Below are positions 57,177-62,032 of a stretch of DNA of 64,000 nt, one piece after another. Both the position numbers and the translations under genes were made by a program. The number at the start of each line of letters is the position of its first letter. The first letter of the stretch is position 1. Under the pieces are notes generated by a model. The model worked only from the letters and a program-made list of their open reading frames with translations. It did not search any database and was not told the origin of the DNA. Source of the stretch: an uncultured Eudoraea sp. Lineage in GTDB: Bacteria > Bacteroidota > Bacteroidia > Flavobacteriales > Flavobacteriaceae. Where the stretch lies: positions 455,821 through 519,820 of the forward strand of contig NZ_CANLGX010000003.1 of assembly GCF_947490415.1 (NCBI RefSeq), given 5' to 3'.

Positions 57177-58634
57177 ATGGCTTCAGTCTTCAAAAAGGAT
57201 CCTGCTTTTGAAAATATTCCCTCAATAAAAGCTAAGACTCTTAGAATAAATCTAAATCCCGATATCTATGGGACTTTTGCGGAAATAGGGGCCGGACAAG
57301 AGACTGCCAGGTGGTTTTTTAGATCAGGTGGTGCCTCAGGGACCATAGCAAAAGCTATGAGTGCCTATGACAAGTCTTTCAGCGATGCCGTTTATGGTGT
57401 GGAAACTGAAGGCAGGTATGTTACCCAAAGTAGACTAAAAAAGATGCTTTCTCATGAAATGCATCTTATGGAAGAGCGTATTAGCAGGGATAAAAATCCG
57501 GATAAACTGTTTTTTACTTACGCAAATACGGTTGCAACTATAGACTTTTCAAAGCGATATAAAGGCCATGGCTGGGTAGGAATCCGTTTTCAATTAGATC
57601 CAACCCAAAAGGAATTTGACGAGATCATATTACATGTCAGGTTTAAACAAAATGAAGCCCGTTTGCAGCAGGAGACCCTGGGAATAGTTGGAGTGAACCT
57701 TATCTATGGTGCTTTTTATAAGTATAATAAACCCAGAAAGCTATTAAAATACCTATATGATCATATAGACCGTGATACCCTGGAGATTGATATGGTAAAT
57801 TTCTCAGGCCCAAACTTTAAAAACGTTGACAATAGACTTATGAGTCTTCAGCTTATCAGATATGATATGACTGATGCTGTCATGTTTGGCCCAGACGGAA
57901 ACAATCTTCTTCCGGCTGCCATTCTCTATAAAAAGAATATTCTTGCGCTTAGAGGGAGTTTTAGGCCTGTAACTAAGGTGAACATGGATATGTTTGAAAA
58001 GTCTTATGAAATTTTTATTCGTGATCCGGCAGTTGATGAAGACAATTCTATTGTAATATTTGAAATCACATTGTCTAATCTAAAAGCTTCCGGGGAAATA
58101 GATGAAAGTGACTTTATGGACCGGGCCAAATTATTGTGTTCATTAGGACATTCCGTGATGATTTCGAAATTTCAGGAATATTTTAAATTGGTGGAATACT
58201 TCAACAATTATACGAAAGCAAAAATTGGTCTTACTATGGGTGTTAATAACCTGGTGGACATATTTGATGAAAAATATTACAGGCATCTGAGCGGAGGTAT
58301 TTTGGAAGCATTTGGCAAGTTATTCTTTAAAGAACTCATCGTATATCTTTATCCGATGAAGAATCCCGAGACCGGTCAGATCATGACTAGTAATAATGTT
58401 AAGGTTCATCCGAGAATGAAGGAGTTGTACAAATTTTTTAAGTACAATGGGAAAGTTATGGATATTATAGACTACGATCCTGAAATTATGGACATATTTT
58501 CCAGGGATGTCTTGAAAAAAATTCAAAGCGGAGAAGGTGGTTGGGAGGAAATGCTACCAGAAGGTATTGCGGAAACAATAAAGAAAGAACACCTTTTTAT
58601 GCGAACTTCCGATAAACTAGAGGAAAAAGCTTAA
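57177..58634 (+). CDS. Conserved flavobacterial protein of unknown function (485 residues)
   Basis: A 485-residue soluble protein. It has no signal peptide and no membrane helix. I recall homologs throughout Bacteroidota that are variously auto-labelled TonB receptor or nicotinate-nucleotide adenylyltransferase, but neither is supported: no plug/barrel and no nucleotidyltransferase HxGH motif is present. Strongly characteristic stretches are YGTFAEIGAGQETARWFFRS (about 31-50), ASGTIAKAMSAYDKSFSDAV (about 53-72), GHGWVGIRFQLDPTQKEFDE and FFKELIVYLYPMKNPETGQI. The FAEIGAGQE glycine-rich turn is suggestive of a ligand pocket. It is single and divergent from the MBL gene. Confidence 0.8.
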   Translation: MASVFKKDPAFENIPSIKAKTLRINLNPDIYGTFAEIGAGQETARWFFRSGGASGTIAKAMSAYDKSFSDAVYGVETEGRYVTQSRLKKMLSHEMHLMEERISRDKNPDKLFFTYANTVATIDFSKRYKGHGWVGIRFQLDPTQKEFDEIILHVRFKQNEARLQQETLGIVGVNLIYGAFYKYNKPRKLLKYLYDHIDRDTLEIDMVNFSGPNFKNVDNRLMSLQLIRYDMTDAVMFGPDGNNLLPAAILYKKNILALRGSFRPVTKVNMDMFEKSYEIFIRDPAVDEDNSIVIFEITLSNLKASGEIDESDFMDRAKLLCSLGHSVMISKFQEYFKLVEYFNNYTKAKIGLTMGVNNLVDIFDEKYYRHLSGGILEAFGKLFFKELIVYLYPMKNPETGQIMTSNNVKVHPRMKELYKFFKYNGKVMDIIDYDPEIMDIFSRDVLKKIQSGEGGWEEMLPEGIAETIKKEHLFMRTSDKLEEKA

Positions 58635-59201: not shown

Positions 59202-59864
59202 ATGACGAAATCGGAAAAAGTATCCTTTACTATAAAAAAATTGCAGGAATTATATCCCGTGATACCTGTTCCTCTTCAGCATAAAGATCCATATACATTG
59301 TTAATCGCTGTATTATTATCGGCCCAAAGTACAGATGTACGCGTAAACCAGATAACCCCTATATTATTTGCAAGAGCAGATAATCCCTTCGACATGATTA
59401 AAATGTCTGTTGAGGAAATAAAAGAAATTATTAGGCCCGTAGGACTTTCACCGATGAAATCGAAAGGAATACATGGTCTATCCAAAATATTGATCGAAAA
59501 ATATGAGGGTAATGTCCCTTCAGAAATTAGCTTGTTGGAAGAATTACCGGCTGTGGGTCATAAAACCGCAAGTGTAGTAGTCTCTCAGGCCTTTGGTATA
59601 CCGGCTTTTCCGGTTGATACGCATATTCATCGTCTAATGTATCGTTGGGGTTTTTCCAATGGTAAAAATGTGGTTCAAACCGAGAAAGATGCAAAAAGGT
59701 TGTTTCCTAAAGAATTATGGAACGATTTGCATCTTCAGATTATTTGGTATGGCCGTGAATATTCTCCGGCAAGAGGCTGGGATATAGACAAAGATTTAAT
59801 AACCAAAACGATAGGGAGAAAAAAAGTATTAGAAGATTATTATAAAATTAAAAAGGCCCGCTAA
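59202..59864 (+). CDS. nth: Endonuclease III without the Fe-S cluster cysteines
   Basis: A 220-residue DNA glycosylase/AP lyase of the HhH-GPD type, removing oxidised pyrimidines. Seen: LLIAVLLSAQSTDVRVNQIT (about 29-48, the usual LSAQTTD), VGLSPMKSKGIHGLSKIL, and the helix-hairpin-helix LEELPAVGHKTASVVVSQAF with catalytic lysine then FPVDTHIHRLMYRWG with catalytic aspartate. Standard enzymes end in a [4Fe-4S] loop with four cysteines; here the same region (HLQIIWYGREYSPARGWDID) has none. The stop codon is inside the downstream terminator hairpin. Confidence 0.9.
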   Translation: MTKSEKVSFTIKKLQELYPVIPVPLQHKDPYTLLIAVLLSAQSTDVRVNQITPILFARADNPFDMIKMSVEEIKEIIRPVGLSPMKSKGIHGLSKILIEKYEGNVPSEISLLEELPAVGHKTASVVVSQAFGIPAFPVDTHIHRLMYRWGFSNGKNVVQTEKDAKRLFPKELWNDLHLQIIWYGREYSPARGWDIDKDLITKTIGRKKVLEDYYKIKKAR

Positions 59865-59873
59865 TTGCGGGCC
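59855..59873. terminator. Bidirectional hairpin terminator (nth and first sigma module)
   Basis: GGCCCGC (59855-59861) pairs with GCGGGCC (59867-59873) around TAATT. On the minus strand it is followed by a T run (AAAA at 59851-59854 on plus), so it is strongest for the minus-strand sigma module. It overlaps the nth stop codon. Confidence 0.75.
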
Positions 59874-59881
59874 ATCTTGTC

Positions 59882-60025
59882 TTAATTCAAAATTGTTTCA
59901 AATTTGAATGTCTTGTACTTCGTGATTCTGAAGGACCTGGAATAATTCAGTAAGAACTGAATCGTCTCAGGACTGGTTTTTGCCAGTTTACAAGCGTTTT
60001 GCTCTTCAGAGTAAATTTTTTCCAT
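59882..60025 (-). CDS. 47-residue partner ORF of sigma copy 1
   Basis: A small ORF with ATG at 60023-60025 and TAA at 59882-59884, placed 72 bases after the first sigma gene and just before a terminator on the same strand. It begins MEKIYSEEQNACKLAKTSPE and ends KFETILN. It shares 24 of 47 residues with the ORF after the second sigma gene (61041-61184), including the conserved EQN/HQN-x-CKL-x-K-x-x-PE block and the final FE-x-x-LN. Equal length, position and divergence pattern show it is a real gene. It is soluble, mixed charge, with one conserved cysteine. A role in regulating the neighbouring sigma factor is inference. Confidence 0.78.
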   Translation of the reverse strand: MEKIYSEEQNACKLAKTSPETIQFLLNYSRSFRITKYKTFKFETILN

Positions 60026-60097
60026 ATTATTATAGTATAGTTATGTTCTAATAACGCAACTAAAATGGAAATATTGCTCGGATGTTATTCCTTGCTC

Positions 60098-60679
60098 TTA
60101 ATTTGTTAAAACTATATTGTGTCTTTCAATTATCTTTCTGAGATTTATAAGTGCATATCGCATTCTTCCAAGGGCAGTATTTATGCTTACTCCGGTATTT
60201 TCAGAAATCTCCTTAAAGCTCATGTCCTTGTATATTCTCATAAGCAGAACTTCTTTTTGATCATCGGGTAATTCTTCAATCAAAGAACCAAGATCACTAT
60301 CTATCTGATCTTTAATAATCTGCTTTTCTGCATTAAGTTTGTCGTCACCTATAACGGAGAAAATATTAAAATCATCACTTCCTTCAAACTTAGGCATACG
60401 CTTGTTCTTCCTAAAGTGATCAATAATTAAGTTATGTGCAATTCTCATGACCCATGGCAAAAATTTTCCCTCTTCACTATAAGATCCTTTTTTTAGAGTT
60501 TTAATTACTTTTATAAAGGTGTCCTGAAAAATATCCTCAGTTATATCCCTATCCATTACCTTGGAATAAATAAAACTACTTATACGTTGATTGTGTCTGT
60601 TTATAAGAACTTCAAGTGCTTTTTCGTCACCGCTGATATAGTCTCTTACTAATTCTGAGTCGTTAATTTCAAATTCCAT
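60098..60679 (-). CDS. ECF-type RNA polymerase sigma factor, copy 1
   Basis: A 193-residue sigma-70 family ECF factor. Region 2: LVRDYISGDEKALEVLINRH then DITEDIFQDTFIKVIKTLKK (the DxxxDxFQDxFIK core, about 48-70), FLPWVMRIAHNLIIDHFRKN (-10 contact). Region 4: LPDDQKEVLLMRIYKDMSFK and the helix-turn-helix EISENTGVSINTALGRMRYA (about 158-177). It is about 85 percent identical to the next sigma gene (165 of 193 residues) and most likely arose by tandem duplication. Differences are mostly at the amino end. No anti-sigma gene with a membrane span is adjacent; a 47-residue ORF follows instead. Confidence 0.93.
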   Translation of the reverse strand: MEFEINDSELVRDYISGDEKALEVLINRHNQRISSFIYSKVMDRDITEDIFQDTFIKVIKTLKKGSYSEEGKFLPWVMRIAHNLIIDHFRKNKRMPKFEGSDDFNIFSVIGDDKLNAEKQIIKDQIDSDLGSLIEELPDDQKEVLLMRIYKDMSFKEISENTGVSINTALGRMRYALINLRKIIERHNIVLTN

Positions 60680-60981
60680 AATTGGTAGTATTTTTTGGTT
60701 AATATAAAGGGGCTTCTTTTTGACGGACCTTTGGTTACTAGTTTAAATATTTAGTAGCTATGATTTCATAATTACAATTTAAAAGTATCGAAATAGCCAT
60801 GTCTGAGAAAAACTATGTTGTCAAACCCGTGATTTTTGATGTCAAAGAGCGATTTGGCAAGTAAAGACACAATAAATCCATAATAAATTAGTTACCAATT
60901 GATTTTCAGGAAGCCTGGAAATATTCCCGGATTAATTCCAATTAATTATATAAGCGGCTTCAATAACAACCAGAAACTAAA
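60680..60981. other. Upstream region of sigma copy 1
   Basis: About 300 AT-rich bases between the first sigma start and the terminator of the second module. Next to the sigma start, TTTTTTGGTTAA (60690-60701) and the AGGGGC stretch (60707-60713) are shared with the upstream region of copy 2 (61846-61866), which shows that the duplication included the promoter region. No gene is seen. Confidence 0.5.
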
Positions 60982-61010
60982 AATCCCCTTGATGTATTAT
61001 CAAAGGGATT
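60982..61010 (-). terminator. Terminator of sigma module 2
   Basis: AATCCCCTTGAT (60982-60993) pairs with ATCAAAGGGATT (60999-61010) with one mismatch around a five-base loop; on the minus strand it runs into TTTAGTTT. It closes the second sigma/mini-protein unit. Confidence 0.7.
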
Positions 61011-61040
61011 AATGAATATCCTAATAAAATGGTTATATGG

Positions 61041-61184
61041 TTAATTCAAGTTACTCTCAAATGTAAGTTCTTTATGTTTTACAATATTTAATGCCTTAGA
61101 ATACTGAAGCAATAACTGTACACTCTCTGGCTTAACTTTTACAAGCTTGCATTTGTTTTGATGTCTAGGGTAAATCTGTTCCAT
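61041..61184 (-). CDS. 47-residue partner ORF of sigma copy 2
   Basis: A small ORF with ATG at 61182-61184 and TAA at 61041-61043, located 69 bases after the second sigma gene. It begins MEQIYPRHQNKCKLVKVKPE and ends TFESNLN. Same length as the ORF behind sigma copy 1 and about 51 percent identical, against 85 percent for the sigma pair. Basic in the first half, amphipathic helix in the middle (SVQLLLQYSKALNIV, residues 21-35). It has no membrane helix, signal or known domain. The two are best read as a partner family of the sigma factors; function is unproven. Confidence 0.78.
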   Translation of the reverse strand: MEQIYPRHQNKCKLVKVKPESVQLLLQYSKALNIVKHKELTFESNLN

Positions 61185-61253
61185 AAATAATATTGTTATG
61201 ACTAAATAACGCAACTATTATGAAACCATTTGTATTAGTCGTTATAGAACCTA

Positions 61254-61835
61254 TTAATTCGTTAAAACAATATTGTTCTTTTCTATGATTTTTCTTAAGT
61301 TAATTAACGCATATCGCATTCGTCCTAAAGCAGTATTAATACTTACTCCTGTATTTTCAGATATTTCTTTAAAACTCATATCCTTATATATACGCATTAC
61401 CAGGACTTCTTTTTGATCATCGGGAAGTTCTTCTATCAATAATCCAAGATCATTGTCTATCTGGTCTTTGATTATCTGTCTCTCAGCATCTAGTTTATCA
61501 TCCCCCAAAACGGAAAAAATGTTAAAATCATCACTACCTTGAAATTTAGGCATTCGTTTATTTCTTCTAAAATGGTCAATGATCAGATTATGAGCTATTC
61601 GCATAACCCAAGGTAAGAACTTACCCTCTTCATTATAGGCCCCTCTTTTTAAGGTCTTTATTACCTTTATAAAGGTATCCTGAAAGATATCTTCAGTAAT
61701 AGCCCTGTCCTGGACCTTGGAATAAATAAAACTCGTTAGACGTTGATTGTGCTTGTTTATTAGAATTTCCAGGGATTTTTCATCCCCGCTAATGTAATTC
61801 TGAACTAAAATTGAATCCGCGACTTGTAGTTGCAT
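61254..61835 (-). CDS. ECF-type RNA polymerase sigma factor, copy 2
   Basis: A 193-residue sigma-70 ECF factor, paralog of copy 1. Region 2: LVQNYISGDEKSLEILINKH and AITEDIFQDTFIKVIKTLKR; -10 contact HNLIIDHFRRNKRMPK. Region 4: LPDDQKEVLVMRIYKDMSFK and EISENTGVSINTALGRMRYA, identical in the recognition helix to copy 1. So both should recognise the same -35 element, while the amino ends (MQLQVADSILV against MEFEINDSELV) differ. The gene is followed by its own mini-protein gene and terminator. It lies upstream of and divergent from uvrA. Confidence 0.93.
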   Translation of the reverse strand: MQLQVADSILVQNYISGDEKSLEILINKHNQRLTSFIYSKVQDRAITEDIFQDTFIKVIKTLKRGAYNEEGKFLPWVMRIAHNLIIDHFRRNKRMPKFQGSDDFNIFSVLGDDKLDAERQIIKDQIDNDLGLLIEELPDDQKEVLVMRIYKDMSFKEISENTGVSINTALGRMRYALINLRKIIEKNNIVLTN

Positions 61836-62032
61836 ACTAATTACTTTTTTGGTTAAACTTAGGGGCCTTTCTTTTGGGAAAGGACTTTAGTTATTCAGAT
61901 TAATGCTCAAAAAAGTAATTTTCGCGTATAGGCGGTTTTTTTTAGTTATTAAGATTCAAATATAGAGAAAAAATATTTTTTCAAGTAAACAATGTTGTGA
62001 TATTGCAGAATTTAGATGTAAAAGACTACCTA

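Follow-up and report, generated by a model that had tools for sequence, protein, structure and literature searches.

We analyzed a stretch of 64,000 nucleotides from an uncultured Eudoraea species of the Flavobacteriaceae (the window). It contains two copies of a unit in which the gene for an ECF sigma factor is followed by a gene for a protein of 47 amino acids (the mini-protein), for which the best reading is an anti-sigma factor that was reduced to its last helix and a beta-hairpin. More broadly, we propose that the unit encodes an ECF sigma factor with its cognate anti-sigma factor, eroded to the last helix, and that masking by an RNA leader and feedback from the mini-protein's own promoter belong to the same circuit. 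We put the probability of this combined reading at roughly two in three.

Two sigma factor units in tandem

Both units are on the minus strand. In copy A, the sigma factor gene (61254..61835) is followed by mini-protein A (61041..61184) and by a terminator-like hairpin (60982..61010); in copy B, the corresponding features are at 60098..60679, 59882..60025, and 59855..59873. Each sigma factor has 193 amino acids, each mini-protein begins with ATG, and the gaps between the sigma factor and the mini-protein are 69 and 72 nt in the two units. There are four terminator-like sites on the two strands of this region, versus 1.0 (standard deviation 0.9) in shuffled sequences. An earlier reading, which used the sequence only, had described this layout, and its positions and gaps are as we find them. 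Its counts of identical residues also hold: the two sigma factors are 85% identical and the two mini-proteins are 51% identical (23 of 47 positions differ). We also saw, on comparing the copies, that the recognition helices of the two sigma factors are identical, as it had claimed. That the copies have upstream sequence in common is true in part: the shared sequence is real (families D2 and D3), but it covers only part of the upstream region, and copy B lacks the leader that precedes copy A.

Both sigma factors match Sigma70_r2 and Sigma70_r4 from Pfam above the cut-off, so regions 2 and 4 are present, and Pfam finds no further sigma domains in either protein. After these two, the most similar ECF gene of the genome is 32% identical. 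The units are flanked by uvrA (divergent, from 62082 onward) on one side and by nth and bcp on the other side. This order is kept in relatives, as the named loci with enough flanking sequence show (72 of 75 for uvrA, 74 of 79 for nth, and 69 of 76 for bcp). Elsewhere in the window, a protein of 485 amino acids on the plus strand (57177-58634) has no match in NCBIfam at E ≤ 1e-20.

By profile score, close homologs of the sigma factor are shown to span the class Bacteroidia and beyond: we found them in 250 of 295 genomes from the class (E ≤ 1e-50) and in 93 of 198 genomes from the phylum (E ≤ 1e-45). (Outside of Flavobacteriaceae, orthology is by profile score, as our tree covers the family only.) At one locus from Flavobacteriaceae (L112:4986-5696), the reading frame of the sigma factor continues to 21 nt short of the start of the mini-protein, so this sigma factor may be extended at its C-terminus or may have lost its stop codon. 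The string AGGTCGA occurs shortly downstream of the sigma factor's stop codon in many A copies, and also in some units that have no second copy (in the intergenic regions of L021, L022, L026, L027, L037, and several of L066-L076).

The mini-protein and its relatives in other Bacteroidota

Conservation and the pattern of substitutions confirm that the mini-protein is a real conserved gene, not a chance ORF. At 80 named Flavobacteriaceae-like loci, it follows the sigma factor in 90 of 90 units. (These loci are the best 80 of over 580 hits for the sigma factor, not a random draw.) The ORF withstands two of the checks that the sequence-only reading had named: it is conserved outside of this genome (a single-sequence search matched it in 109 of 149 genomes from the family), and its substitutions are codon-constrained. 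Across 16 close pairs, some of which overlap, the mini-protein has a pN/pS of 0.23 and the sigma factor has one of 0.04. This confirms purifying selection on the ORF, and with the family-wide conservation it rules out a non-coding or chance ORF. Across 395 genomes from the phylum, a profile of the mini-protein matched 49, of which 41 are from this family and eight are from one other family in the same order. We also collected 126 mini-proteins (some may be the same species sampled twice); all 126 end in N, and 111 end in LN. The start codon is ATG. We rejected readthrough of the sigma factor's stop codon into the mini-protein because their relative frame varies among loci, though they are in frame in both copies in the window.

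No Pfam or NCBIfam model matches the mini-protein up to E = 1, and a fold search of the PDB found no matches at E ≤ 0.001. A simple hydropathy test found transmembrane-like segments in 0 of the 126 mini-proteins. The mini-proteins in the window have one cysteine each and 65 of the 126 have none, so a zinc-binding motif is absent. For the mini-protein alone, AlphaFold2 predicts a helix (residues 19-31) and a hairpin (32-37/40-45), with a pLDDT of 83-93 for the block from residue 21, and at most a short extra helix at 7-11. When the mini-protein is fused to the sigma factor, the same fold is predicted (pLDDT of 75-92 over that part). These models support a folded small protein; since the fold is the same alone and fused, they say nothing on docking. 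Foldseek with the fused model returned sigma factors from complexes and gave no placement of the mini-protein. A coevolution analysis of the sigma factor and the mini-protein on 221 pairs (effective depth Neff 54) gave no clear signal in either direction, and neither did a comparison that looked for relaxed constraint in sigma factors without a partner. Within the open-access literature, we found no prior description of the mini-protein or of the leader.

The slot downstream of the sigma factor was read in loci from many families, drawn by hits to the sigma factor. In other classes, the slot holds a protein of 180-270 amino acids in 21 of 22 loci. (The other locus, L176, had no downstream ORF listed and was dropped.) By the hydropathy test, 17 of these 21 proteins have a transmembrane-like segment. 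Among 19 N-terminal pieces, 15 match the "anti-sigma factor" model from NCBIfam (NF052375) at E ≤ 0.01 (the best is 1.1e-9), with bit scores that, where shown, fall below the model's curated cut-off. Within the class Bacteroidia, the partners are soluble, with 44-93 amino acids (median 65) and transmembrane-like segments in 0 of 94; the last residue is N in 70 of 94, and the last two are LN in 51 of 94. What follows the sigma factor in this class is mostly such a small soluble protein with the C-terminal helix (motif P-x4-(T/S)-(I/V)-x2-(I/L)-L-x-(Y/F)-S-(K/R)), and in many cases the tail has LN at its end. Some of the partners, with about 72-82 amino acids, align with the outgroup proteins as an apparently whole anti-sigma domain; others, with 53-70 amino acids, retain the C-terminal helix and have the LN tail. 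The proteins from Flavobacteriaceae have only the helix and the predicted beta-hairpin left.

A downstream homolog was found at E ≤ 0.01 in 94 of 138 loci from the class, versus 0 in antisense frames, and at E ≤ 1 in 99, versus 7 in antisense frames. (The 138 loci were chosen by hand from the sigma factor hits, and 28 of the 94 are seeds of the model; among non-seeds, the count is 66 of 110.) Thirty-nine of the 138 loci have no partner at E ≤ 1, so the sigma factor can do without one. These include 8 of 10 loci from families f4 and f5; the remaining two (L158 and L220) have chance-level matches only. Partner lengths of 39-63 amino acids at L159, L161, L162, L224, and L226 were rejected, as they reflect late starts: longer frames overlap the end of the sigma factor. 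L162 and L226 stand in alignment A5 (see below) in their short form.

Profile comparisons link these forms step by step. The mini-protein matches the forms of 55-70 amino acids (Prob 97.3, E = 2.2e-11), which match the forms of 59-81 amino acids in alignment A5 (Prob 97.1, E = 7.3e-11), which in turn match the domains at the N-termini of the outgroup proteins (Prob 98.0, E = 2e-13). (As each step compares just two profiles, the E-values are not database E-values; alignment A6 excludes L175 and also L167, which is a near copy of L165.) Controls against the sigma factor alignment gave Prob of 0.3 and 0.6. The mini-protein and the A5 forms match with Prob 81, over the helix only. Comparing the mini-protein's profile to the outgroup anti-sigma factors directly finds nothing (Prob 0.2), so homology rests on the intermediates and on gene position. 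When the profile of the forms of 55-70 amino acids, which has no Flavobacteriaceae rows, was run against 1,248 frames from the window, mini-protein B ranked first (E = 7.1e-6) and mini-protein A ranked second (E = 1.5e-4). With the A5 profile, both are again at the top of the window, with E-values that are not significant (0.14 and 0.63). The outgroup domains have no significant relative in the PDB; the best is RskA (E = 0.22). Given the stepwise links between neighbors, the mini-protein is best read as a reduced anti-sigma factor.

The nearest points of comparison include the class I anti-sigma factors, such as RseA, RsiW, RskA, and ChrR. As described in PMC7406223, their helices 1-3 bind region 4 of the sigma factor, while region 2 is contacted by helix 4, at the site of the polymerase clamp; of the 14 contacts with the strongest coevolution, 12 join helix 4 to region 2. 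Like these proteins, the mini-protein is encoded next to an ECF sigma factor, and by alignment (via the intermediates) its helix would correspond to helix 4. In the outgroup, the proteins at this position match the anti-sigma model from NCBIfam, with scores under its cut-off. Unlike class I proteins, the mini-protein has no part equivalent to helices 1-3, no transmembrane-like segment (PMC7406223 gives one for about 65% of class I anti-sigma factors), and no sensor domain, and it has just 45-50 amino acids across Flavobacteriaceae. (The zinc-binding motif that it lacks is found in part of class I only.) Because the bundle of helices 1-3 was tested for and is absent, with one main helix and a hairpin predicted instead, we file the mini-protein as a strongly reduced anti-sigma derivative and not as a member of class I.

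CnrY, the class II anti-sigma factor of CnrH, is anchored in the membrane and has two helices, while the mini-protein has one main helix and a hairpin. The stretch of CnrY that acts on its sigma factor is very short as well, and the last helix of CnrY is described as binding region 2 as helix 4 does (PMC7406223). EcfO-Reo and the Dma family, from Bacteroides, are likewise pairs of ECF sigma and anti-sigma factors from Bacteroidota, but Reo and Dma are described as reaching from the cytoplasm to the outer membrane (PMC13114119, PMC13088901), and the mini-protein has no membrane segment. We rejected EcfO/Reo as the identity of our pair. SigP from Porphyromonas gingivalis is another ECF sigma factor from Bacteroidota with 193 amino acids, and those parts of PMC4800418 and PMC7712824 that deal with it name no downstream anti-sigma candidate. 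In this, SigP may be comparable to the partner-less loci of f4 and f5; a difference is that SigP is activated by PorX.

The leader RNA and a candidate promoter

The sigma factor gene of copy A is preceded by a structured leader (61836..61937, minus strand) in which GCCTATA is followed by AATTACTTTTTT, which pairs with AAAAAAGTAATT immediately upstream of the ATG, with an inner hairpin. Upstream of this leader, TATATTTG (61957..61964, minus strand) matches the sigma-A box of flavobacteria (TAnnTTTG, the consensus given in PMC9723704). We aligned 50 such leaders, chosen by hand from about 80 of the same type. Their consensus has GCCTATA and the arm ATTACTTT, which pairs with AAAGTAAT a few bases upstream of the ATG; when folded with the arms constrained, most of the 50 have an inner hairpin of variable sequence. 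In the stem, 93.7% of the cells pair, and sliding the partner arm reduces the pairing to 59% or less. There are 30 cells with changes on both sides, versus 10.6 when shuffled, and 0 of 500 shuffles reach this number. Two other counts are not extreme: the pairs with two-sided changes (4 versus 2.9, reached by 73 of 500 shuffles) and the further pair types (reached by 27 of 500).

Across 67 leaders, the probability that positions -13 to -1 are unpaired is 0.15, versus 0.53 when shuffled, and 60 of the 67 fall below at least 19 of 20 of their own shuffles. In copy A from the window, this probability is 0.12, but the AUG itself is mostly unpaired (0.66). We infer that the stem masks the start region of the sigma factor and restrains its translation. 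A model of the leader (R1), built from the 50 leaders including that of copy A, has 32 matches in 31 of 41 genomes from the family. Twenty-six of these are paired with a listed mini-protein, all at 635-695 nt upstream of it, and the six others were not placed. Copy A is the only R1 match in its own genome at E ≤ 0.01. No match from Rfam overlaps the leader of copy A up to E = 5.

Outside of Flavobacteriaceae, many of the sigma factors have a Shine-Dalgarno sequence. GGAG or GAGG precedes the start in 48 of 138 sigma factor genes from the class, versus 1 of 70 other long ORFs from the same loci and 0 of 90 units from Flavobacteriaceae. (Shine-Dalgarno sequences are rare in this class; PMC9976891 reports them at rpsU and at some other ribosomal genes.) Among these 48 (from loci L187-L226 and L227-L306), 30 have AGGAGG or AAGGAG, and 27 of those 30 have an arm of the form TAC(T/G/C)(T/C)T at 30-75 nt upstream. 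R1 matches some leaders from the class (L192 with E = 3e-6; L200, L190, and L197 below 0.001). The Shine-Dalgarno region is unpaired with a probability of 0.26, versus 0.37 if the upstream part is shuffled, and 9 of 30 leaders are clearly below their shuffles. These results weakly support hiding of the Shine-Dalgarno sequence by a leader outside of Flavobacteriaceae.

The mini-protein seems to have a promoter of its own. In 126 units, the distance from a CAAT, CTAT, or CAAA box to a CGT box is most often exactly 20 nt (73 cases); 18 nt comes second, with 7 cases. The CGT box was found by pattern in 108 of the 126 units (most of the other 18 have CGTTT), and it is mostly 26-44 nt upstream of the mini-protein's ATG. 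The candidate for mini-protein B is CAATA-N15-CGTTA (60052..60076, minus strand). For mini-protein A, the candidate is present in degenerate form only (61207..61232, minus strand), with CAAAT and CGTTA at 21 nt. A CGT box at -10 is described for the ECF promoters of Flavobacterium psychrophilum (PMC9723704); the -35 element of the SM6 promoters of that species and the sigma factor responsible for them were not matched here. The fixed spacing of an ECF-like promoter candidate upstream of the mini-proteins suggests feedback.

We also looked for a regulon by the promoter motif and found none. CAATA-N15-CGTTA is not enriched in its own genome (8 matches, versus 11 for the reversed control). A slightly longer pattern has 52 matches in 41 genomes from the family, versus 33 for the control; several of the 52 are at mini-protein promoters, and many belong to a look-alike repeat that, in the own genome, falls within an ORF. 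From these counts, we do not name a regulon. Two of the eight matches in the own genome (L308 and L309) are intergenic, at 28 and 36 nt before genes that by eye are lipoprotein-like. These distances are close to the spacing at the mini-protein, and the two genes could be members of the regulon or due to chance.

The duplication, other explanations, and what the unit means

The tandem arrangement is not particular to the window's genome and is common to related genera. Two matches to the mini-protein were found in 18 of 149 genomes from the family, and in 17 of these 18, they are on one contig about 1.1-1.5 kb apart. Among the 80 named loci, 10 are tandem. In a tree of the sigma factors, whose bootstrap had not settled and which has many weak branches, 12 of the 16 A copies form one cluster that spans different genera (support of 82/96), and the A copy from the window groups with that of a Muriicola genome (93/82). 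Because the A copies cluster across genera, the tree suggests that the duplication predates these genera.

The clearest difference between the copies is the loss of the leader in copy B. The upstream region of copy B (60680..60800, minus strand) folds without the leader stem and has no R1 match at E ≤ 0.01, and its positions -13 to -1 are unpaired with a probability of 0.66. Similarly, among tandem loci with a name, the leader motif precedes the upstream copy in 10 of 10, and the downstream copy is exposed in 10 of 10 (unpaired probability of 0.42-0.95). As it has no leader, copy B should be a translationally unmasked version, lacking this brake. The sequence-only reading had tied the unequal divergence of the sigma factor and the mini-protein to the duplication, and this did not survive: most of the 16 pairs are from lineages with a single copy, which means that the duplication is not what makes the mini-protein change faster. 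It had also proposed that two circuits of sigma factor and partner, either insulated from each other or in competition, are arising from the duplication. The persistence of both copies in several genera agrees with that, as do mini-proteins that differ at nearly half of their positions beside identical recognition helices. But the mini-protein outpaces the sigma factor in single-copy genomes too, and the consistent difference between the copies is the leader, which points to expression rather than specificity. We consider such circuits to be less likely than not.

The broader idea that the mini-protein is a soluble modulator of the sigma factor remains the best reading, and it is supported and sharpened by the stepwise homology to anti-sigma domains. 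In our proposed mechanism, an ancestral anti-sigma factor would have lost its membrane sensor and the bundle that binds region 4, and the mini-protein, which by alignment retains the helix-4 part, would bind and inhibit the sigma factor. The sigma factor would transcribe the mini-protein from an ECF-type promoter, giving negative feedback. The sigma factor's mRNA begins with a covarying stem that probably masks the initiation region, so translation would be a further control on the output of the sigma factor. The duplication would be an old event in Maribacter/Muriicola-like lineages, with copy A keeping its masked leader and copy B losing it.

A descendant of an anti-sigma factor might instead have stopped inhibiting and could be a stabilizer, a delivery adaptor, a degradation tag, or an aid to polymerase binding for the sigma factor. 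The mini-protein has lost the part equivalent to the helices that bind region 4 and has gained a tail ending in LN (the predicted hairpin), and positive partners do exist in this phylum: PorX binds SigP as well as activating it (PMC7712824). Yet what was retained is the very part of class I proteins that has the most contacts with the sigma factor (PMC7406223), and we consider a non-inhibitory role to be unlikely. It is far less probable still that the mini-protein is an unrelated small protein that merely belongs to the sigma factor's regulon, driven by the intergenic ECF-like promoter. That would fit with its own promoter-like element and with the non-significant direct link to the outgroup anti-sigma factors, but it leaves aside the stepwise chain of profiles and the intermediates that occupy the same slot.

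Our preferred reading, of a sigma factor with an anti-sigma factor eroded to its last helix, can be extended to the class, more tentatively. Across Bacteroidia, one conserved ECF sigma factor might be under a two-layer circuit that has no sensor, with a masking leader RNA and a one-helix anti-sigma peptide made from the sigma factor's own promoter. The two tandem copies would then differ as masked and unmasked forms of this sigma factor. The rare Shine-Dalgarno sequences in many species outside of Flavobacteriaceae would then possibly be read by ribosomes with a free anti-Shine-Dalgarno tail.

If the mini-protein is an anti-sigma factor, then it would be among the smallest natural ones, at the end of a visible series from a membrane anti-sigma factor to a single helix. 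This would show how far an anti-sigma factor can shrink and yet stay beside its sigma factor across much of a class, and with the intermediates one could test directly how much of an anti-sigma factor, and which part, suffices for control. It may also explain why a conserved sigma factor of Bacteroidota would look like an orphan in annotations, given a partner that is so small and that no family model covers. Finally, the leader would probably add an input at the level of translation, in a group where Shine-Dalgarno sequences are seldom used.
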